A stretch of DNA of 64,000 nucleotides from Saccharomonospora viridis DSM 43017. Lineage in GTDB: Bacteria; Actinomycetota; Actinomycetes; Mycobacteriales; Pseudonocardiaceae. Below are positions 36,250 to 47,113 of the stretch, piece by piece. The notes under the pieces are model-generated. The model saw only the letters and a list, made by a program, of their open reading frames with translations. It had not been told where the DNA came from and did no database searches. A program made the position numbers and the translations under genes. How positions within the stretch are numbered: position 1 is the first letter of the stretch; each line of letters opens with the position of its first letter. Location of the stretch: the NCBI RefSeq assembly GCF_000023865.1, contig NC_013159.1, forward strand, positions 1,390,001 through 1,454,000, given 5' to 3'.

Positions 36250-36918
36250 GTGTTTATCGGGCTTTAACTCGAGCCTTGTCGTATTTTGTCGTAACAATGA
36301 CTAGGCTACGGGCCGGCCTCCGGCTCCAGCAGGATGTGCTTCAGGGCCGCGACGTTGCCACAGTTCGATGCTCGAGTAGCTCGATAGCGTTGTTCCACAA
36401 CAGCCAGGCCGCTACTGATTGGTCCGCGGTCACTGTGTTCTGCGGGGCTGGCTAGTTTCACGGAGCACGGTCCTGTTCTACGCTGCGTGTGCGTTGTGGC
36501 CTTGGCGACCCCGTAGACGTCCGCCGCTTCATGGAAGCACTCCATGGTGTTATTCGGATCGACCACTCGCCAGTTCTCCCGCTACGAGGTGTGAAGTGCC
36601 CCCCTGCTAAAGATGTTGCTAAGCCCTCGGTCACGCACTACTTACCGGCGTCGAACTTGACAACACCGGATCGTATACCTGCTGCGGTATATGCCAAGAG
36701 AAGCCGACTTCGCGCCAGCGGCCAACTGCTCAGCGTTGCCGGAAGCCCTCTTGACTCACTCGACTGGCACTGATTTTGACCGGCCGGTGCGTCGCGCTAA
36801 ATACCCCACCCTGGCCGCATGCGAGGCCGCCTTTGGCGCCGGTCACCATCGCTGATGCTGATACTGCCCACCACTCGTCTTCTCTTGGATAGTCTCTGCG
36901 TCATAAGGCGCTCAGAGT
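36250..36918. other. Gene-free stretch between tRNA-Asn and CRISPR array 1
   Basis: Visibly more AT-rich than the core genome, with short overlapping open frames and frequent stops. A minus-strand frame at 36306-36566 (86 codons, with GNVAALKHILLEPEAGP) might be a relic of a mobile-element gene. Nothing can be assigned. Confidence 0.4.
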
Positions 36919-36964
36919 GAATGAAAAACGGGTCGCCAGGCGGTAAACATGCAGGTCACGAAGT
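36919..36964 (+). promoter_or_regulatory. Leader box of CRISPR array 1
   Basis: 46 bp immediately before the first repeat. It begins GAATG and ends AAGT, and aligns without gaps with the boxes before arrays 2 and 3 (shared CGGGT, CGGTA, GGTCA and AAGT). It fixes the transcription direction as plus. Confidence 0.8.
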
Positions 36965-37420
36965 GTCCGCCCCGCGCGTGCGGGGATGAACCCTCATCAC
37001 CGACCACTAGGAGTTCCAGTCATGCGTCCGCCCCGCGCGTGCGGGGATGAACCGTACTCGGTGAGCGCGTGCTCGATCACCAGCTGGTCCGCCCCGCGCG
37101 TGCGGGGATGAACCGGTCGGGATGAAACGCCACCCAGGCTGGGGTGTGTCCGCCCCGCGCGTGCGGGGATGAACCTACGGATGTGCTCGATGACGGGCGT
37201 GCCACTGGGTCCGCCCCGCGCGTGCGGGGATGAACCCTGGACGGCGTCGCCCGCGTCGGGACGCCTCGGGTCCGCCCCGCGCATGCGGGGATGAACCGGT
37301 GCTCACCTCCCCAGGTTGTCATCCACCTGAGTCCGCCCCGCGCATGCGGGGATGAACCGTGGAACGGTTCGACCAGGGGCAACGGCAACTCGTCCGCCCC
37401 CGCGCATGCGGGGATGAACC
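36965..37420 (+). CRISPR. CRISPR array 1, type I-E, eight intact repeats
   Basis: 28-bp repeats start at 36965, 37026, 37087, 37148, 37209, 37270, 37331 and 37392, a 61-bp period with 33-bp spacers. Each reads GTCCGCCCCGCG, a 3-nt loop, then GCGGGGATGAACC, the I-E stem and 3' handle. The first five have loop variant CGTG, the last three CATG. The last repeat has one extra C (29 bp). The leader lies on the left, so new spacers would enter there. Decayed repeats follow. Confidence 0.98.
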
Positions 37421-37450
37421 GCTGCCAGGTACTCGACAAGGGCCTACTGG

Positions 37451-37595
37451 GTTCTGCCTGTGCACGCAGAAATGAATCATCAACATGGGCAGTGTGTTTT
37501 CGGGGAACGTTCACCTCGGTGCGTAGGGGCTGAACGCAATGTCACCCGCCTGTGGGTTGGCGAGCACGTCTGTCCCACAGATGCAGGACCAATCG
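37451..37595 (+). repeat. Degenerate repeats at the old end of array 1
   Basis: Three progressively decayed units in phase with the array: 37451-37478 (ends AAATGAATC), 37509-37536 (ends GGGGCTGAACG) and 37568-37595 (starts GTCTGTCCC). Stem pairing is largely lost, so they are unlikely to be processed. Confidence 0.75.
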
Positions 37596-38168
37596 CTACC
37601 GCTGTCTGATTCATGAGTGCGGGAATGTGTCGATCGTGCCTCTAGACCGTCAGAACCGTTAGTTGGGTTGGGTAGGGAGGTAGTGACCTGGGGCTCGATA
37701 TTGGTTCATGCATCGGACATCACGCTGGACAACGACACTCTCCTCGAGCTGGCGAACCGTGGTCGAGTAGATCGCGGCTGGATGGTGCGTGCTGGCAGCT
37801 GGGCGATGGATTCTGGGATATGACCGAAAACTGCGTCGGGACGGTCACTGAGGCCATTACGATCACACAGTCAGAGGATGACTTGGCTTGGCTGCCTTGC
37901 TTAGTTCCGCACGACTGATGTAGGCGTAGCCATGTTCTCGTGCAACAGCAGCTGAGCCCGTAAGGATCCGTCCTTTTTGGTCATCCGTAGACAAGTTGTC
38001 GGTAAGCTTGCCACGCTAGGACTGTGATCCGTTTGTTCGTCTGTCGATCTGCCAAACCAATTAGCGCTACACGTAGACGCCGCCGAGCGGGAGTGGGTTA
38101 GTGCTACGGCGGTGGAAGCCAGATCTTTGACGGAACGGCTCCACGCAATAGCTTCTGCGTGGGGGCGT
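37596..38168. other. Gene-free stretch between array 1 and the cas3 mini-array
   Basis: About 570 bp of comparatively AT-rich sequence. The longest plus frame (37617-37823, 68 codons) has no ribosome site or similarity I recognise. It could hold a small RNA partner of the mini-array, but nothing in the sequence shows one. Confidence 0.4.
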
Positions 38169-38258
38169 TTGTTTTCCCCGCATACGCGGGGCGATCACCG
38201 CTTCTCCGTCCAATCACCGGTTGTACAGCGGTTCATCCCCGCAGAGCGCGGGGCAGTG
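38169..38258 (-). CRISPR. One-spacer mini-CRISPR with degenerate repeats, divergent from cas3
   Basis: Read on the minus strand: a first repeat (38258-38230) with stem GCCCCGCG-CTCT-GCGGGG and an intact ATGAACC handle; a spacer of exactly 33 nt (38229-38197); then a second repeat (38196-38169) with stem GCCCCGCG-TAT-GCGGGG but handle changed to AAAACAA. Orientation is opposite to the three arrays, and no leader box is present. It ends 81 bp before cas3. The first 12 nt of its spacer match 38301-38312 in the cas3 promoter region at 10 positions. This layout resembles CreA/CreR regulatory crRNA-like genes. Confidence 0.7.
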
Positions 38259-38300
38259 GTTAGAGGCTAGCACTGTCACTCGATCGGGCTATATAAAGAA

Positions 38301-38312
38301 CCTGTATAACCG
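38301..38312 (+). promoter_or_regulatory. Candidate target of the mini-array spacer in the cas3 promoter
   Basis: CCTGTATAACCG here versus GCTGTACAACCG at the 5' end of the mini-array spacer (mismatches at positions 1 and 7). It is flanked 5' by GAA where a I-E PAM would sit, and contains TATAAC, a possible -10 element, 30 bp before the cas3 ATG. Alternatively the two sequences are inverted half-sites of a protein operator. Confidence 0.45.
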
Positions 38313-38339
38313 TTAAAAGCTTCTGCTACTGTCGCGATC

Positions 38340-40838
38340 ATGCAAGCGCCCTGGGGGAAACGGCGCGGGCTTGAAGCTGCTGACGGCAGCCCGCGCGAAT
38401 ATCCGCTCGTCTGCCACCTCTGCGACACCGCCGCCGCCGCGCTCGTGCTCTGGGAGGACCACACCGCGCCCGGTGTCCGCGAGTGGGTTGCCAACGAACT
38501 CGACATGACCCCACACGAGGCAGGACGGTTCATTGCCTACCTCGCCGGACTGCACGACATCGGTAAAACCACCCCTGGTTTCCAGTGTCAGGACAGCACT
38601 GACAAAAACAGCGTCGACACAATCCGGCACGAGATCGCGAGCTATCTGGCCGTGCCCACACTCATCGAGCACCCCGAAAAGCCAGCCTCGTTCATCTCAG
38701 GTATCGCGCACCGGATCGGGGAAATCCTCGGCGGCCACCACGGCGTCTTCCCACCCGTCGACCGCCGCACCCGCAAACCGTTACACGTACCTGAACTCGG
38801 CGGCCCCGAGTGGGACACCGCACGGCGCACTATCCACACCGAACTGAGAGCTCACCTCAACCCCACCCTGCCCACATGCCTGCCGCAGCCTGTCGCAGCA
38901 GCGCTCACCGGGCTGGTGATCGTGGCCGACTGGATCGTCTCCGATGCCCGCTGGATCCTCGAATCACAGTGGGACGCTCCCATCGGTATCGCCGCGCGCT
39001 GGGAACACACCCTGAACGCCACCCGCGCCCGTGTCCACCAGCTCGGGCTCGCCCACCCCACCCCCGGACCGCTGGATCTCGCCCGGATCCTCGGCGGCCC
39101 CAACCGGTCCCCGAACCCGCTCCAGCAGTCGATCATCGACGACTTCCACCCCACCGGGCCCGGCCTGTTAACGATCGCCACCCCCACCGGGTCCGGGAAA
39201 ACCGAAACCGCGTGGATCGCCGCCCACAAACTCGCCACCGCCACCGACAGGTACGGCACCCTCATGTGCCTACCCACGCAGGCCACCACGAACTCGATGT
39301 GGGCCCGCACCAGCGCCACCGTCGACAACACGGTCACCCTCGCCCACTCCATGGCCGTGTTCCACAGCCCCTACCGCCACTACTCCACCCACGACCCCGA
39401 CGCGTTGCGGTGGCTCAACGGCAGGAAACGCCCGATGCTGTCCGCCCACGCGGTCGTCACCATCGACCAACTCCTCGCCGCCGGGCTCACCGCGAAACAC
39501 AACATGGTCCGCCAATGGGCGCTCACCGGCAAGGTCGTGATCGTGGACGAGGTCCACGCCTGCGATATCTACATGCTCACCGTTCTCGCCCGCGTCCTTG
39601 AATGGTTGGGCCGCCTGGGCGTGCCGGTAGTGCTGCTGTCAGCGACGCTTCCTGGGCATGTGTCGCGGCAGCTCACCGCCGCCTACCTCACCGGTGCAGG
39701 ATGCTCATCCCCGAACCCTCGCCCTGTGGCCTACCCGGGTTGGGTGTGGCACCCCATCACCGGTAGCCCGGTCGAACCACGGAACCGAGCACAAATCAGC
39801 AGAGCGCACGCTCGCACCGCCCGCGTCACCGTCACCCACTACACCGGCCCCGTCGAGGCCGCCGCCGCCAACGCCATCCAGCCCGTCGCTAAAAACGGCG
39901 GGTGCGCAGCAGTGGTGTGCTCCACCGTCGACACCGCCCAACGCATCTACATCCGGATTCGCGACACCTACCCCGGCATGTGCGTGTGGCTGCTGCATTC
40001 CCGGTTCCCCCACGCCCACCGCGCTGAGATCGAAGCCGACATTGTGTCGATGTTCGGCCCAGCCGGCGACCGCCCGGACGGAGTTGTGGTGGCCACCAGC
40101 GTCATCGAGCAGTCCCTCGATGTCGACTTCGACGTGATGATCTCCGAACTCGCCCCGGTGGCGTTGCTGTTCCAGCGCCTCGGACGCGTGTGGCGGCATG
40201 ACAATCCCCGCCCCGCGTGGGCCACCGAACCCACCCTCCACATCCTCGACCGTGACGGGGCACTGCCATACGGCCCGGCCGCGATCTACCGCGACTCCCT
40301 GCGCGAACTCCGCGCCACCCGAGCTGCGCTCGCCGGCCACGGAACCCTGATTCGGATCCCTGAGGACGTGTCCACGCTCGTGCAGCAAGTCCACAACCGC
40401 GACCTCGATGATCTTAACGACCTCCAGTCTCAGCGGGAACGCCGTGACGCCGGATTGGCCAACATCGTCGCCATCCCCAACCCCCACCAGCTCGGTCACC
40501 TGGAAACAATGACCTGCCCCGACGTCGACGACGCCACCGTGGCCGCCCGCCTAGGCATGGACACCATTCGCCTCATCCCCGCCCACATCGGAATCGACGG
40601 CCGCTACTACCTCGACCCCAAACACGAAATCCCCTACCCACAAGGCCGTCCACCACACCGGTTCGTTGAAGCCGCGCTCAACGCGAGCATCACCTGCCCC
40701 GCCCACTGGGTGCGTGACTGGCCCACCAACCCCGACTGGGCGGGCACCCACCTCGCCGACACTGTGCTGTTCCCCAACACCTGCCATGACGGGCTGCGCC
40801 TGGACCCCGAACTCGGCCTCGTGAAAGGAAACCAGTGA
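38340..40838 (+). CDS. cas3: CRISPR-associated nuclease/helicase Cas3 (type I-E)
   Basis: 832 residues. The N-terminal HD nuclease has His26 in VCHLCDTAAAA and His72-Asp73 in GLHDIGKTTPGFQ. The SF2 helicase follows with Walker A TPTGSGKTETAW near residue 283, DEVH box VIVDEVHACD near 402, SATLPG and motif VI FQRLGRVWRH. Cas3 unwinds and degrades DNA that Cascade has bound. No strong ribosome site precedes the ATG. It opens the cas operon and overlaps cse1 by 4 bp. A mini-CRISPR lies upstream. Confidence 0.97.
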   Translation: MQAPWGKRRGLEAADGSPREYPLVCHLCDTAAAALVLWEDHTAPGVREWVANELDMTPHEAGRFIAYLAGLHDIGKTTPGFQCQDSTDKNSVDTIRHEIASYLAVPTLIEHPEKPASFISGIAHRIGEILGGHHGVFPPVDRRTRKPLHVPELGGPEWDTARRTIHTELRAHLNPTLPTCLPQPVAAALTGLVIVADWIVSDARWILESQWDAPIGIAARWEHTLNATRARVHQLGLAHPTPGPLDLARILGGPNRSPNPLQQSIIDDFHPTGPGLLTIATPTGSGKTETAWIAAHKLATATDRYGTLMCLPTQATTNSMWARTSATVDNTVTLAHSMAVFHSPYRHYSTHDPDALRWLNGRKRPMLSAHAVVTIDQLLAAGLTAKHNMVRQWALTGKVVIVDEVHACDIYMLTVLARVLEWLGRLGVPVVLLSATLPGHVSRQLTAAYLTGAGCSSPNPRPVAYPGWVWHPITGSPVEPRNRAQISRAHARTARVTVTHYTGPVEAAAANAIQPVAKNGGCAAVVCSTVDTAQRIYIRIRDTYPGMCVWLLHSRFPHAHRAEIEADIVSMFGPAGDRPDGVVVATSVIEQSLDVDFDVMISELAPVALLFQRLGRVWRHDNPRPAWATEPTLHILDRDGALPYGPAAIYRDSLRELRATRAALAGHGTLIRIPEDVSTLVQQVHNRDLDDLNDLQSQRERRDAGLANIVAIPNPHQLGHLETMTCPDVDDATVAARLGMDTIRLIPAHIGIDGRYYLDPKHEIPYPQGRPPHRFVEAALNASITCPAHWVRDWPTNPDWAGTHLADTVLFPNTCHDGLRLDPELGLVKGNQ

Positions 40839-42289
40839 CCAACATCGCCACCGACCCGGTCATCCCGGTGACACGATCCGACGGCACCACCACCCGCCTC
40901 GGCCTACGTGACCTTCTCGTCCACGCCCACAAGATCCGCCACTTGGATATCCCCATCCCCCCAGCCGAGGCCGGGCTCCTGCGGATCCTGTACACGATCA
41001 CCTGCCGTATCACCGGCCTCGACACCCACGACAACCGCAACACATGGGCGGAGCATCGCAACACGGTCCTCGCCACTGGGCGGTTCGACGCGGACGCCAT
41101 TAACGCCTACCTCGGCAAGCACTGCTGGGACCTGTTCGACGAACAACGACCGTGGATGCAAGATCCCCGACTCCCTGACCAAGCGGAACGCAAGACCGCA
41201 AACGTCCTCGACATGACCAGGCCCGGAGACAACTCCGCGATCTGGTGGAAGCACACCCACGCCGACTACGCCCCACCCTTGCCCGCACACGAAGCTGTGC
41301 AATGGCTGATCGTGCACCACTACTACGGGTCCGGAGGCGCTGGCGGGAAACGCACCGTCACACACAACAACAAGACAGTGTCGGACCAGTACATGTCCTC
41401 CGGCCCGTTGCGGTCCACCGTCACCTACTACCCACTCGGCGCGACACTGTTCGAAACCCTGCTCGCAGGCATCCCCGCACCCTCACACACCACCACAGGC
41501 GACGCCGCGCCATGGGAAACCGACCTCAACCAGCCACTCGGCACCCCACCCGCCCCCACGTGGCCCGCCGGGATTCTCACCGGCCAATCCCGACACGCGC
41601 TCCTGCTCGACCACACCGACAACGAGGTCGACGGCGTCTACCTGACGTGGGCGTGGAAAGAACGCCACACCCCGATCCTGGATCCGTATTGCATTCACAA
41701 CATCGACCCCAAAACCGGCGAAGCCCAGCCACGCCAAGCGAACACCTCCCGCTCGGCGTGGCGGGACTTCGACGCGCTGCTGGCCGACCGTCCCACTCAC
41801 ACCCGTCCCGCCGTGCTGGGGGATGCGCTCGACCTTCCCGACGATCTCCAAGACACCCTGCGGGTTCGGGCGATCGGCTGGCACCAGGACCGACAGGCCA
41901 CCAACACCGGCTGGTATGTCTCCGAAACTCCGCCACTGCTGCGGTACATGGATGAGCACGACCCCGCCCGCGCGGCGCTAGCTGAAACCCTCGTCACCAC
42001 AGCCGACAAGGTTTACGGGGCGATGCGCAAAGCGCTCCACAAGGCGTGGAAGGACGCCGACCTCGGCGATCCCAAACAGTGCCCGTGGAAGGACGCCGCT
42101 GATCACCTGTACTGGCCCGCCGCTGAACACATCTTCTGGGCACACCTTGATGCCAACACCCCACCAGAGCGGGAGTTCGTGGACACCGCTGTGCGTGTCA
42201 TCGACACCGTCACCGCCCCACATGCCGACCGCCTCTTGGTCGCTCGCGAAACCGCCCGAGCCATCCGCACAGTGAGAGGAATCAAATGA
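40835..42289 (+). CDS. casA: Cascade large subunit Cse1 (CasA, Cas8e)
   Basis: 484 residues. The N-terminus NIATDPVIPVTRSDGTTTRLGLRDLL and ILYTITCRITGLD are typical of Cse1. The central part has DQYMSSGPLRSTVTYYPLGATLFETLL and the C-terminal part forms a four-helix bundle. It recognises the PAM and recruits Cas3. GTG start overlaps cas3 by 4 bp and the stop overlaps cse2 by 4 bp, indicating tight coupling. Confidence 0.95.
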   Translation: MTNIATDPVIPVTRSDGTTTRLGLRDLLVHAHKIRHLDIPIPPAEAGLLRILYTITCRITGLDTHDNRNTWAEHRNTVLATGRFDADAINAYLGKHCWDLFDEQRPWMQDPRLPDQAERKTANVLDMTRPGDNSAIWWKHTHADYAPPLPAHEAVQWLIVHHYYGSGGAGGKRTVTHNNKTVSDQYMSSGPLRSTVTYYPLGATLFETLLAGIPAPSHTTTGDAAPWETDLNQPLGTPPAPTWPAGILTGQSRHALLLDHTDNEVDGVYLTWAWKERHTPILDPYCIHNIDPKTGEAQPRQANTSRSAWRDFDALLADRPTHTRPAVLGDALDLPDDLQDTLRVRAIGWHQDRQATNTGWYVSETPPLLRYMDEHDPARAALAETLVTTADKVYGAMRKALHKAWKDADLGDPKQCPWKDAADHLYWPAAEHIFWAHLDANTPPEREFVDTAVRVIDTVTAPHADRLLVARETARAIRTVRGIK

Positions 42290-42792
42290 CCAGCCCCACC
42301 GCCAAATTCGTGCAGCACATCGTGGACCGCTGCGACGATCTCGGCGTCCGTGCCGACCTCCGCAGCGGTGTCGCGATCCCCATCGACCGCGCCCCCCGCA
42401 TGCACGCTCACGTCGCCCGATGGACACGCGACGACTACCCCTACGAGACCGCCGCCCGCTACACCGTGGCCGCGCTCATCGCCTACAAACCCGAGGGCGC
42501 GATCCCCGACGAATCCCCCGGCAACCTCGGCGCATCACTCGCGCTCGCCACACACCTCGTCGCGGACACCCGCGAGCGGCTGCTGCACATGGTGACCAGC
42601 CAACCCCCGTCACGAATGCCAGTCACCGTTGCCCGGGTCGTCGCGCAACTTCGCGACGGCGAAATCCCCGTGGACTTCGTGCGACTGTGCGACGACCTCA
42701 ACGCATGGCCATGGCGACGCCGAGACATCACCCGCCGCTGGATGCAGTCCTACTACCGCCACACCATCCCGACCAACGACGACAACGAGTGA
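42286..42792 (+). CDS. casB: Cascade small subunit Cse2 (CasB)
   Basis: 168 residues, all-helical by composition. ADLRSGVAIPIDRAPRMHAHVARW near the N-terminus and IPVDFVRLCDDLNAWPW are family-like. A basic segment (WPWRRRDITRRWMQSYYRH) likely touches the displaced DNA strand. Two copies line the Cascade belly. ATG start overlaps cse1 by 4 bp; cas7e starts 14 bp after the stop. Confidence 0.93.
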   Translation: MTSPTAKFVQHIVDRCDDLGVRADLRSGVAIPIDRAPRMHAHVARWTRDDYPYETAARYTVAALIAYKPEGAIPDESPGNLGASLALATHLVADTRERLLHMVTSQPPSRMPVTVARVVAQLRDGEIPVDFVRLCDDLNAWPWRRRDITRRWMQSYYRHTIPTNDDNE

Positions 42793-42806
42793 AAGGAAAC
42801 CACCCC

Positions 42807-43913
42807 ATGTTCGTGGACATCCACGCCCTGCACACCCTGCCCTACTCCAACGTCAACCGCGACAACCTCGGCGCGCCCAAATCGTGCTGGTACGGAGGAA
42901 CCGAACGCATCCGCGTGTCCTCACAGGCGTGGAAACGCGCGATCCGTAAGGCCGTCGAACAGGACCTTGAACAGCCGACCGAACGGACCCGCCGCATCGC
43001 CTCCCTCGTCGCGGGAATCCTCACTGAACGTGGGTGGGGCGCTGAGGACGCTCGGCGCGCCGGGCGCGCCGTGATCTACGCCTACGGTCTCGAACCTGCC
43101 GCCGATGACGACGACACCGACACCCTGCTGTGGACCCCGCCCGCTGCCGAGGCGTTGGCTGGTGTGGTGGAAAAGCACCGCGACACAGTGGTCACGCTTC
43201 CGTTGCCGAAGGGAGAGGGCAAAAAAGCCAAGAACCCGCCCGCGAAGGACATCACCGACGCGGTGAAACCCATGGCCGGCGAGGTGAAGTCCATTCTCAA
43301 CAGGACCACCCCGACGATCGCGCTGCTCGGCCGCATGCTGGCTGACCGCCCCGACCACACCATCTACGGCCTCGCCGAGATCGCGCACGCGTTCACCGTC
43401 CACGAGGCTGCACCCGAATTCGACTACTTCACCGCCGTGGACGACCGTGCCGCGAACACCGGAGCCGGGCACGTCAACACCGCCCAGTTCACCACTGGCA
43501 CCTTCTACCGCTACTCCAGCATCAACATCACCAGGCTGGTCGACGTCGTCGGAGAGCAGGACGCGCGAGCAGTGCTGTTGGCGTGGGCACGCCGATTCAT
43601 CACCGTCACCCCGGCTGGAAAACAAACCGCTACTGCCGCCCGCACGGCTGCGGACTTGGCGCACATCGTGGTCCGCAACGCCCCACAGTCCTACGCCCCC
43701 GCGTTCGAAACGCCGATCGTGTCCACCGGCGGCTATCTCGACCCGGCTGCTCGTGCTCTCGGGGACTACGCCACCCGCCTCGCCGCCTATCTCGGCGACA
43801 CCCCCGTCGAGCACGGGTATGCCACCACCCTCCCCACCAATGTCGACGGGCTCGGAGGCCGGTTCGACACCCTCGACACGTTGATCAACGCGACGGTGGG
43901 GGCTGTGGCGTGA
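42807..43913 (+). CDS. casC: Cascade backbone subunit Cas7e (CasC, Cse4)
   Basis: 368 residues starting MFVDIHALHTLPYSNVNRDNLGAPKSCWYGG, with RIRVSSQAWKRAIRKAVE, the conserved Cas7e N-terminal motif. The middle contains EFDYFTAVDDRAANTGAGHVNTAQF and FYRYSSINITRL. Six copies bind the crRNA spacer. GAAAGGA precedes the ATG at 42807; the frame is open further upstream inside cse2 but without similarity. Overlaps cas5e by 4 bp. Confidence 0.96.
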   Translation: MFVDIHALHTLPYSNVNRDNLGAPKSCWYGGTERIRVSSQAWKRAIRKAVEQDLEQPTERTRRIASLVAGILTERGWGAEDARRAGRAVIYAYGLEPAADDDDTDTLLWTPPAAEALAGVVEKHRDTVVTLPLPKGEGKKAKNPPAKDITDAVKPMAGEVKSILNRTTPTIALLGRMLADRPDHTIYGLAEIAHAFTVHEAAPEFDYFTAVDDRAANTGAGHVNTAQFTTGTFYRYSSINITRLVDVVGEQDARAVLLAWARRFITVTPAGKQTATAARTAADLAHIVVRNAPQSYAPAFETPIVSTGGYLDPAARALGDYATRLAAYLGDTPVEHGYATTLPTNVDGLGGRFDTLDTLINATVGAVA

Positions 43914-44620
43914 CCACGCTCGTGCTGCACCTGGACGGTCCCATGCAGGCGTGGGGCCACGCTTCCCAGTGGGATCACCGCGACACTCTCGACTATCCCA
44001 CCCGGTCCGGGGTGATCGGGATGATCGCTGCCGCGCTCGGCAAACAATGGGGCGACAGTCTCGACGATCTCTCCCCACTACGGTTCACCATCCGCATCGA
44101 CCGGCCTGGACGTCGGATCGTGGACTACCACACCGCTGGCGGAGGCTACGAAGTCGGGATCGCACGAGTCAAAGGCGGCAACCGGGCTCATGCCGTTCTC
44201 TCCGACCGATTCTACATGTCCGACGCCGCGTACACGGTCGCCATCACCGGACCCGACACGCTCCTCTACCGAGTAGACGACGCGCTCCGCGCGCCGGTGT
44301 TCGGCCCGTTCCTCGGTCGCCGGTCCTGCCCGCCCGCAGGGCCGTGGCATCTCGGCCTCCATGACGGTGATCCGTTACGAACACTGCCACTACACAGGGA
44401 CAAACCCCGCGACGGTGACACCGTGGCTGTGGAGTTCGTGTCCGACCACGAAACACACGGCCCCACGGATCGAGTGGACACCACACTCACGGATCCACAC
44501 GAATTCGGCCCCCGCCGCTCGTACGGGACCGTCACCACCCACCGTTGGACCGAAACCCTGCCTGTCGCTATGTGTGGCGGAACCGGGATCCAGTGGTTCG
44601 ACGCACTCACCACTGTTTGA
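43910..44620 (+). CDS. casD: Cascade subunit Cas5e (CasD)
   Basis: 236 residues. VTTLVLHLDGPMQAWGHASQW is the Cas5e RAMP start, followed by YPTRSGVIGMIAAALG and DYHTAGGGYEVG. C-terminal part contains FGPRRSYGTVTTHRW. It caps the 5' handle of the crRNA. GTG start overlaps cas7e by 4 bp. Unlike ordinary I-E operons, cas6e does not follow directly: a leader and CRISPR array come first. Confidence 0.95.
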   Translation: MTTLVLHLDGPMQAWGHASQWDHRDTLDYPTRSGVIGMIAAALGKQWGDSLDDLSPLRFTIRIDRPGRRIVDYHTAGGGYEVGIARVKGGNRAHAVLSDRFYMSDAAYTVAITGPDTLLYRVDDALRAPVFGPFLGRRSCPPAGPWHLGLHDGDPLRTLPLHRDKPRDGDTVAVEFVSDHETHGPTDRVDTTLTDPHEFGPRRSYGTVTTHRWTETLPVAMCGGTGIQWFDALTTV

Positions 44621-44653
44621 CACGAGTGATCCGCTGATTGACAACTCCATACT

Positions 44654-44699
44654 GAATGCAAATCGGGTTACCGTCCGGTAGAACCGCTGGTCAACAAGT
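44654..44699 (+). promoter_or_regulatory. Leader box of CRISPR array 2
   Basis: 46 bp from GAATG to AAGT, homologous to the leaders of arrays 1 and 3, with only 33 bp separating it from the cas5e stop. It is probably a promoter for array 2 and possibly for cas6e. Confidence 0.8.
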
Positions 44700-44964
44700 G
44701 TCCGCCCCGCGCATGCGGGGATGAACCGAACTTCAAGGCGGTGTCACCGGCGGAGATCATGTCCGCCCCGCGCATGCGGGGATGAACCCTTCCCGGCGGT
44801 GTAGGACTTGCCCGTCCCTGCGTCCGCCCCGCGCATGCGGGGATGAACCGTTGTGCGAGACGTCTAATTCGGAGAGTCCCGGGTCCGCCCCGCGCATGCG
44901 GGGATGAACCGACAGTCGTGCTGCACACCCGCCACATCAAAAAGTCCGCCCCGCGCATGCGGGG
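44700..44964 (+). CRISPR. CRISPR array 2, inside the cas operon between cas5e and cas6e
   Basis: Four intact 28-bp repeats (44700, 44761, 44822, 44883) and a fifth (44944-44964) that stops after position 21, right after the GCGGGG side of the stem. There are four 33-bp spacers. Repeats carry the CATG loop variant, identical to the older repeats of array 1. The cas6e ribosome site AAAGGAG starts 10 bp after the truncated repeat. The plus orientation and leader position match arrays 1 and 3. Confidence 0.97.
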
Positions 44965-44986
44965 ACATCACAGAAAGGAGAACGCT

Positions 44987-45580
44987 ATGCCCACCTACCT
45001 CACCAAAATCACCACACCAAAATCCGTCACCCGCGACATCCACCGCACCCACAAAATCCTCACCACCGCCGTCTGCCCACCCAACATCACCACTCCAGGC
45101 CGCGTCGCAACCCGCCTCTTGCATCGAGTCGAGCGGGGTGGACGCGAAATCCTGGCTCAATCAGCAACACCACTCGATCCGACACGTCTCGAGGGCGGTT
45201 GCGTCATCGCCGGAACAAAACTCCTGGATCCACTGCTGGACCACCTCGACAACGGAACTGTGGTGCGGTACAAGATCACCGCCAACCCCGTCCATGCGCC
45301 CAACCGTGTGAGACGTCCGATCACCGATCCTGACCGGATCCTCGCCTGGTGGCATCGCACCGCTGATCGCATCGGTCTCGTACTGGACTCCACGGCACTC
45401 CTCGACACCGCGAAGACAAGCGGTATGCGGCGGGACCAGAGGGTTGTGGTGCAGACCGCCACCATGGAGGGGGTCGCCACGATCCGCGATGTCGACACAG
45501 TTCGGGACGCCATAGTGCTCGGTGTTGGGCATGCGCGCGCGTATGGCTGTGGGCTGCTGTCTGTTGTCCCCCTTGAATAG
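44987..45580 (+). CDS. casE: CRISPR RNA endonuclease Cas6e (CasE, Cse3)
   Basis: 197 residues. MPTYLTKITTPKSVTRDIHRTHKIL aligns with the CasE N-terminus, with His22 at the position of the E. coli catalytic His20. The Gly-rich RNA-binding loop is LGVGHARAYGCGLLSV near the C-terminus. It cuts pre-crRNA at the base of the repeat stem and stays bound to the 3' hairpin. The ATG at 44987 has AAAGGAG 6 bp upstream. Its 5' leader carries a truncated CRISPR repeat, a potential substrate of the enzyme itself. Confidence 0.95.
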   Translation: MPTYLTKITTPKSVTRDIHRTHKILTTAVCPPNITTPGRVATRLLHRVERGGREILAQSATPLDPTRLEGGCVIAGTKLLDPLLDHLDNGTVVRYKITANPVHAPNRVRRPITDPDRILAWWHRTADRIGLVLDSTALLDTAKTSGMRRDQRVVVQTATMEGVATIRDVDTVRDAIVLGVGHARAYGCGLLSVVPLE

Positions 45581-45611
45581 GATCCTGAGATGTCGCGCAC
45601 AACTTCAGAGT

Positions 45612-45657
45612 GAATGTGAATCGGGTTACTCCTCGGTAGAACCGCAGGTCAGGAAGT
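45612..45657 (+). promoter_or_regulatory. Leader box of CRISPR array 3
   Basis: 46 bp before the first repeat, GAATG to AAGT. It is most similar to the leader of array 2 (shared AATCGGGTTAC and CGGTAGAACCGC blocks). Confidence 0.8.
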
Positions 45658-46112
45658 GTCTGCCCCGCGCATGCGGGGATGAACCGCCCATCAGCATCGA
45701 CTGGGGCGAGCCGTTCACGTCTGCCCCGCGCATGCGGGGATGAACCGACCCTGCCGGGGGTTCCGCTGGACGACTACGCGTCTGCCCCGCGCATGCGGGG
45801 ATGAACCGTATTGTTGGGGTTGTCACGGAGCCCAACACAGGTCTGCCCCGCGCATGCGGGGATGAACCCCTGGAAGGGACGGTGGTGGGGTGCCGCCGTC
45901 TGTCTGCCCCGCGCATGCGGGGATGAACCGTCACCGCCGTGGGCGGCTGCGCTCGGCCGATCGTCTGCCCCGCGCATGCGGGGATGAACCGTCGCTGATC
46001 TTGAGGGTGCCGCGCAGAATGTCGTCTGCCCCGCGCATGCGGGGATGAACCGCGGATCAAGCGGCTGGAGTCGCGGCTGGTGCTGTCTGCCCCGCGCATG
46101 CGGGGATGAACC
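45658..46112 (+). CRISPR. CRISPR array 3, eight repeats, downstream of cas6e
   Basis: Repeats start at 45658, 45719, 45780, 45841, 45902, 45963, 46024 and 46085, all 28 bp with 33-bp spacers and uniformly GTCTGCC at the 5' end (arrays 1 and 2 have GTCCGCC). It stands where cas1-cas2 would normally follow cas6e. Decayed repeats follow. Confidence 0.98.
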
Positions 46113-46143
46113 TGGGGAGCAGCTCACGCACGGCACATTTTGT

Positions 46144-46235
46144 GTCTGCTCTTACCACACAGGTGGGATGTGCCGGACACTACCACTCGAAATGTTGTCG
46201 AGGCAGCGTTTGCCCTGCGTATGCAGGGAATGAGC
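46144..46235 (+). repeat. Degenerate repeats at the old end of array 3
   Basis: A strongly decayed unit near 46144-46173 (starts GTCTGCTC) and a clearer one at 46208-46235 (GTTTGCCCTGCG-TAT-GCAGGG, ends AATGAGC), whose stem still pairs. Confidence 0.7.
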
Positions 46236-47113
46236 TTTGCGGCGGAAGCGGAAGGGGACGGGAGCGCCGAGATGTTCGCATGTGTGGAATACCCTCGCTT
46301 TTAGGAACAAATATTCATGCAGTAGATTATGCGATCTTCTCAACCTTCAGAAGGTGGAAGATGTTCAGCGCTGGCCTTCATGACCTCGTAGCGGCCGTTC
46401 GGGGATATCAGTGGAGCATCTCGTGGTCACGGTAATCAGGAATGATCGTCGGCAAATCCAGTCCTGGAATGCCGTCATCCGCGCCGCGCGCGGCAATGGT
46501 GTCGATGCCATCGAAGATGGATGAAGAACAAGAGAAAAGCGCCGGTTCTTGTGGCGATGATTCCAAATCCAAGGACGGCGATAGAACCTCGGTGGCGTGG
46601 TTCACGGAGATGTCGATCTTCTTCCCAGCAATGGTGTTGGCTGGGATTAGCGATGTCGAAGTGCTAGCCAGTGCACCTGGGAGCTCTGTTGCTCGTCCGG
46701 GTGAAGTTTGTTTCGAGAGTGAGAAAGCGTTAGCGCTCACTAGTTCGGATCGACTGCGTAGCAGTGGTGCAGAGATCAGCATCGCGATTCTGCCTTACCG
46801 AGCGCTCAGTGCCAAGGTAATGGCATGTTGAACCTCGTGAGCTCCCCACCCGGACGTGTCACCTGGGCGTGCCCACGGGTGAGGACGAGGAGGCCACGGT
46901 GCGGCGGATCTCGTCGTACGCGCCGGACGGTGACCGGGCACCGGTGTTCTCGCCGATACCCTGGCCGGCTATCGCCACTCGACGTGCAGGTTTCCTACCC
47001 GCCGCTTACGGCTACTTCTCCGCCCGGGCCCGAGTCCTGCGTCGGCGCGGTGATGTGGCAGTGCGTCCGGCCGACGACAGCTCGTCGGTCCGGCACGGAG
47101 GGAGATCGTCATC
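46236..47113. other. Stretch between array 3 and the BCCT gene without a firm gene
   Basis: About 880 bp, the first half more AT-rich than the core. Two opposed frames are possible: minus 46408-46782 (124 codons, Ser-rich, with AAGG upstream of the ATG) and plus 46442-46831 (129 codons). Neither has a recognisable domain. There is no cas1, cas2 or transposase sequence here. Confidence 0.4.

Follow-up and report, generated by a model that had tools for sequence, protein, structure and literature searches.

Upstream of the type I-E cas3 gene of Saccharomonospora viridis, the minus strand carries a mini-CRISPR of two repeats and one spacer (38258–38169; positions refer to the window, the whole 64,000-nt stretch of DNA analysed). 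We consider it likely that this element is a CreR, a crRNA-like RNA by which Cascade would repress its own operon, with both the RNA and the repression deduced from the sequence. In function it would probably act on the defence genes as a built-in thermostat, of a kind already known. According to a review, CreRs mediate autorepression in types I-B, I-E, and V-A by way of partial complementarity to the promoter (PMC13131331). Since that review already names type I-E, the newness implied by the initial annotation falls away: CreR in type I-E is in print, and the S. viridis locus is a further case. Its placement follows the descriptions in reviews (PMC13131331, PMC12737573), with which it shares a mini-CRISPR beside a cas operon, partial cas-promoter complementarity, and no toxin gene seen. 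Among the titles and abstract openings listed for S. viridis CRISPR and for type I-E mini-CRISPRs and cas promoters, the element itself was not found.

The adjoining operon has a type I-E order. On the plus strand, cas3 (38340–40838) is followed by cse1/casA (40835–42289), cse2/casB (42286–42792), cas7/casC (42807–43913), and cas5e/casD (43910–44620), then by an array, cas6e/casE (44987–45580), and another array. These genes were identified by Pfam Cas3_HD and Cas3-like_C_2 with NCBIfam cas3_core (cas3), PF09481 and TIGR02547 (cse1), PF09485 and TIGR02548 (cse2), TIGR01869 (cas7), and TIGR01868 (cas5e). The presumed processing enzyme Cas6e scores above the cut-off for PF08798 when taken in a longer frame, and just under the cut-off for TIGR01907 (43.1 bits, cut-off 45.2). 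All type I-E effector genes are present, so the locus has the intact effector complex genes expected beside a CreR; cas1 and cas2 were not among the ten ORFs scanned. Three plus-strand arrays flank or interrupt the operon: array 1 (36965–37420, eight repeats), array 2 between cas5e and cas6e (44700–44965), whose truncated last repeat ends some 20 bases before the cas6e start, and array 3 (45658–46112, eight repeats). Decayed repeats trail arrays 1 and 3 (37450–37600 and 46144–46236) at roughly the array period; in the repeat near 46208, the stem is compensated (CCCTGCGTATGCAGGG). Elsewhere in the genome (contig C1: 1764820, 1793762, 1786313–1796770, and 2192829–2199433) lie two more cas3-like loci, along with several other arrays whose I-E repeats are similar.

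The first repeat, R1 (38230–38258, minus strand), is a degenerate I-E repeat that retains the stem and the full ATGAACC handle, with one extra loop base. The second, R2 (38169–38196, minus strand), keeps the stem, and its handle is degenerate or lost. Compared with the array repeat, each outscores all 2000 of 2000 sampled background windows. A 33-nt spacer (38197–38229, minus strand) separates them. On re-reading the sequence, the coordinates, minus orientation, 33-nt spacing, and repeat anatomy given in the initial annotation are all borne out, and the element is what is looked for in a CreR, a degenerate mini-CRISPR adjoining a cas operon. In predicted folds, R1 pairs with R2 in the free 97-nt RNA rather than forming two separate repeat hairpins, and the 61-nt product retains the R2 hairpin. 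Just past the mini-array, the plus strand carries a terminator-like hairpin with a T-rich tail (38139–38164). Rfam gave no match over 36800–46600, and a scan for sigma-70-like promoters on both strands of the locus found none.

The repeat stem, handle, and 61-nt period are those of an ordinary type I-E array spacer, whereas the S. viridis element has a single spacer, degenerate repeats, and a strand opposite to the operon, and its guide matches its own promoter and no phage that we found. Searches of IMG/VR (with every sixth base left free) and of 50,697 phage records returned no match to the guide; such an absence is weak evidence, and it was on this weak ground that an immune spacer against a known phage was dropped as a reading. 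The anatomy also resembles that of CreA in the CreTA modules of I-B haloarchaea and I-F Acinetobacter, where the handle is kept in the first repeat and lost in the second and where pairing is short and PAM-proximal; in haloarchaeal CreTA, the handle is reported to be kept in psi-R1 and degenerate in psi-R2 (PMC9458426). Unlike CreA, which targets a toxin promoter, the S. viridis guide is directed at the cas3 promoter, and overall its R1 has not diverged further than its R2.

Across the window's three arrays, 14 of 20 spacers start with G, as expected if this G is the last base of an AAG-type PAM. We therefore counted the base after ATGAACC (38229) as PAM-derived, which places guide positions 1–32 at 38228–38197. 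In this frame, the guide CTGTACAACCGGT pairs with CTGTATAACCGTT at 38302–38314 through positions 1–5, 7–11, and 13, and the only mismatches within guide positions 1–13 are at 6 and 12. The full target (38302–38333, plus strand) lies in the cas3 promoter/leader, 38 to 7 bases ahead of the start codon, and is preceded by a PAM of AAC (38299–38301, plus strand). In E. coli Cascade, every sixth crRNA base is flipped out and unpaired (PMC5904413, PMC13122317), so both mismatches fall where the complex does not read. Position 6 nevertheless matches more often than chance at E. coli off-target sites (PMC5904413). In the I-F CreA, positions 6, 11, and 18 are unpaired (PMC10097628). With 11 effective matches and an AA PAM, the guide has the partial complementarity to the operon promoter, with a PAM, that is described for CreR, given the inferred position of the promoter.

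Several details of the match had been anticipated. The 10-of-12 match at 38301–38312 is as the initial annotation stated it, and the poor complementarity past that match persists beyond guide position 13, with 18 of the 33 spacer indices mismatched overall. Its mismatches at 1 and 7 both exist, but the first lies outside the guide because that base is read as PAM-derived, and the second is guide position 6. Its GAA PAM becomes AAC when re-read in the I-E frame. This PAM is of the AA type but is AAC and not AAG, which counts against the CreR reading. The S. avermitilis PAM is reported as AAG (PMC4762764), and T. fusca Cascade is reported to prefer AAG, with recognition at −1 called less stringent (PMC6546366).

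If the element were instead the decayed relic of an ordinary minus-strand array, one that formerly extended away from cas3, its promoter match would be a coincidence. Decayed repeats do trail arrays 1 and 3, as noted above, but here the handle is kept in R1 only, and the match itself is hard to obtain by chance. None of 20,000 spacer shuffles reached the observed 11 effective matches against 38235–38400 (the best, 10, occurred 8 times), and the 20 array spacers reached at most 6 in the same region. When 25 guides were compared with the whole 64-kb window, two array spacers gave runs of 11 and 12, which favors coincidence, although neither run had an AA PAM. Run length alone is thus no proof, and the case rests on location, PAM, and run together. 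In the genome (a single contig of 4,308,349 bp), CTGTANAACCG occurs exactly six times, in the spacer, at the cas3 site, and at four other places, and of these exact seed matches, the one at cas3 alone has an AA PAM. The four others (PAMs GTC, GGT, ATC, and GCC; open frames of at least 845 bases) were rejected as further targets of the guide.

To set the locus among its relatives, we assembled sequences lying upstream of I-E-like cas3 genes, drawing on the genus, family, order, class, phylum, named genomes, and ten plasmids (taken from 219 matching records). In each we looked for a hairpin and handle resembling those of a repeat and followed directly by 33 bases with a match near cas3. Genomes with matches numbered 5 of 12 in the genus, 16 of 390 in the family (E ≤ 1e-100), 15 of 397 in the order (1e-90), 22 of 394 in the class (1e-60), 5 of 386 in the phylum (1e-60, with the L033 protein), and 6 of 10 in the genus of L033, in genome sets that overlap. 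Loci L001–L006, L041, L042, L052–L054, L077, and L082 (duplicates or other stretches) were left out, as were loci with fewer than 200 bases ahead of the estimated cas3 start. A loose survey of 64 loci and 2133 guides gave five hits with runs of at least 11, namely L031, L032, and L033 (12), the window (11), and L058 (11); ten shuffled rounds together also gave five. A strict filter (AA PAM, stem of at least 6 pairs, target within −100 to +20), set after these hits had been seen, was applied to 78 loci and 2746 guides. Because L078 and L081 duplicate L062 and L070, these 78 loci stand for no more than 76 places. Four hits resulted, the window, L031, L032, and L033; the longest run in fifteen shuffled rounds was 8, seen once.

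The strict filter found nothing at the other 74 of the 78 loci, among them L027, which has the nearest cas3. There, an array with leader-like sequence directly before cas3 seems to read away from it, judging by the inferred leader direction; this lends the remnant explanation some support, and mini-arrays may arise from array remnants. Survey hits judged spurious were the run of 11 at L058, whose "repeat" is not CRISPR-like, those at L036 and L039, where repeats match repeats, a run of 27 at L090, read as a duplicated spacer, and a run of 10 at L080. The other two cas3 loci of the S. viridis genome, L012 and L013, gave no hit with a run of at least 9, with only about 285 bases available upstream of L013. 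No DNA relatives of the cas3 start were found among the plasmids. At L047 (the same place as L053), cas3 contains an in-frame TGA.

The three related hits all belong to one other genus of the same family, and their Cas3 proteins are 43–44% identical to that of the window. Each has a minus-strand degenerate repeat, a PAM of AAG, and a target ahead of cas3, which starts at −35, −35, and −37 in L031, L032, and L033, respectively, versus −39 in the window. Scored against the L031 array repeat, R1 can be recognised in each (equalled by 4, 11, and 10 of 2000 background windows), and R2 is weak (equalled by 137, 19, and 144 of 2000). The L031 and L032 guides begin GATTGAGTGTTTGAC and face targets GATTGATTGTTTTAC and GATTGACTGTTTTAC, respectively, and the L033 guide GGTTGGCTGTTCGAC faces GGTTGGCTGTTCTAC. 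In an alignment of L031 with L033, 438 of 516 columns are identical; the guide has changed at indices 1, 5, and 11, and the target has changed at the same three indices to the same bases (3/3). Index 6 differs between these two loci in both guide and target and matches in L033 only, and indices 12 and 15 are mismatched in all three relatives. The combination of PAM and seed is unique in all three genomes, and its one site is at cas3.

A guide–target match kept by selection in relatives, as expected of a CreR, is thus seen through these three compensated positions. The initial annotation had proposed conservation in related genomes as a check. Three relatives do keep the architecture, with a different, internally matched, and co-varying guide and target, although the strict filter found no such element at 74 of the 78 loci, and the window's own guide has no relative among the surveyed loci, so that covariation is seen in L031–L033 only. 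These independent co-varying cases, together with the AA PAM and the promoter location, make the array-remnant explanation unlikely. The I-E autorepression by a CreR-like element proposed at the outset is, on the sequence evidence, the best explanation.

Covariation would also arise if guide and target were two sites of one protein regulator, which we consider quite improbable. On the opposite strand, L031–L033 have additional CAATCA-like motifs near −64 and −48 relative to cas3, of which the one at −64 also differs in L033; they may mark a second site or an operator, and those of L031 speak for a protein regulator. Against it, the guide copy comes directly after a repeat hairpin and handle, the mismatches lie at indices 6 and 12, the target follows an AA PAM, and no third copy was noticed in the window. 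Very improbable is an antitoxin guide of the CreA type, acting on a toxin RNA (CreTA) and not on the cas genes: CreA has the same anatomy and works through Cascade (PMC9458426), but the target sits directly before cas3, leaving too little space in that direction for a separate gene.

The CreR reading has its own difficulty in E. coli, where off-target Cascade bound by PAM and seed is reported to have left local expression unchanged and six PAM-distal mismatches are said to lower promoter repression (PMC5904413). This is countered by the 11-bp seed reported for both archaeal CreAs (PMC10097628) and by the covariation in L031–L033. Also weighing against the reading are the negative sigma-70 promoter scan, the R1–R2 pairing predicted for the free 97-nt RNA, the weak R2 of the relatives, the 74 loci lacking a strict hit, and the choice of the strict filter after a loose survey in which shuffled rounds gave as many long runs.

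We propose that a minus-strand transcript of the mini-CRISPR would be cut by Cas6e at the repeat stems, yielding a crRNA-like RNA with an intact AUGAACC handle that would be loaded into the operon's own Cascade. The complex would then bind the TATA-rich cas3 promoter/leader, using the AA-type PAM together with a PAM-proximal match some 13 nt long, and may hinder RNA polymerase. With so short a match, the R-loop would stay incomplete and Cas3 would not be recruited, leaving cas3-cse1-cse2-cas7-cas5 repressed without cutting. Array crRNAs or anti-CRISPRs that take up Cascade would be expected to lift the repression, as suggested by reviews of CreR (PMC12737573).

More tentatively, and with considerable doubt, the I-E CreR of this family could be a fast-turnover circuit. 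The guide would differ from lineage to lineage, guide and promoter seed would change in step (as in the three compensated changes that separate loci of about 85% identity), and the aim would always stay just before cas3. In the window, transcription of the mini-array must start within a stretch that the target overlaps. A single Cascade could therefore switch off its own guide as well as cas3, making the thermostat self-limiting.

The four guide–target pairs are offered for testing the minimum pairing that Cascade needs to repress, and they bear on the E. coli report of transcriptionally inert seed-only binding (PMC5904413). They also serve as a warning that solitary degenerate repeats adjoining cas genes may be regulators and not debris. 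The compensated changes provide natural evidence for selection, in actinomycetes, on the autorepression of type I-E operons guided by Cascade.
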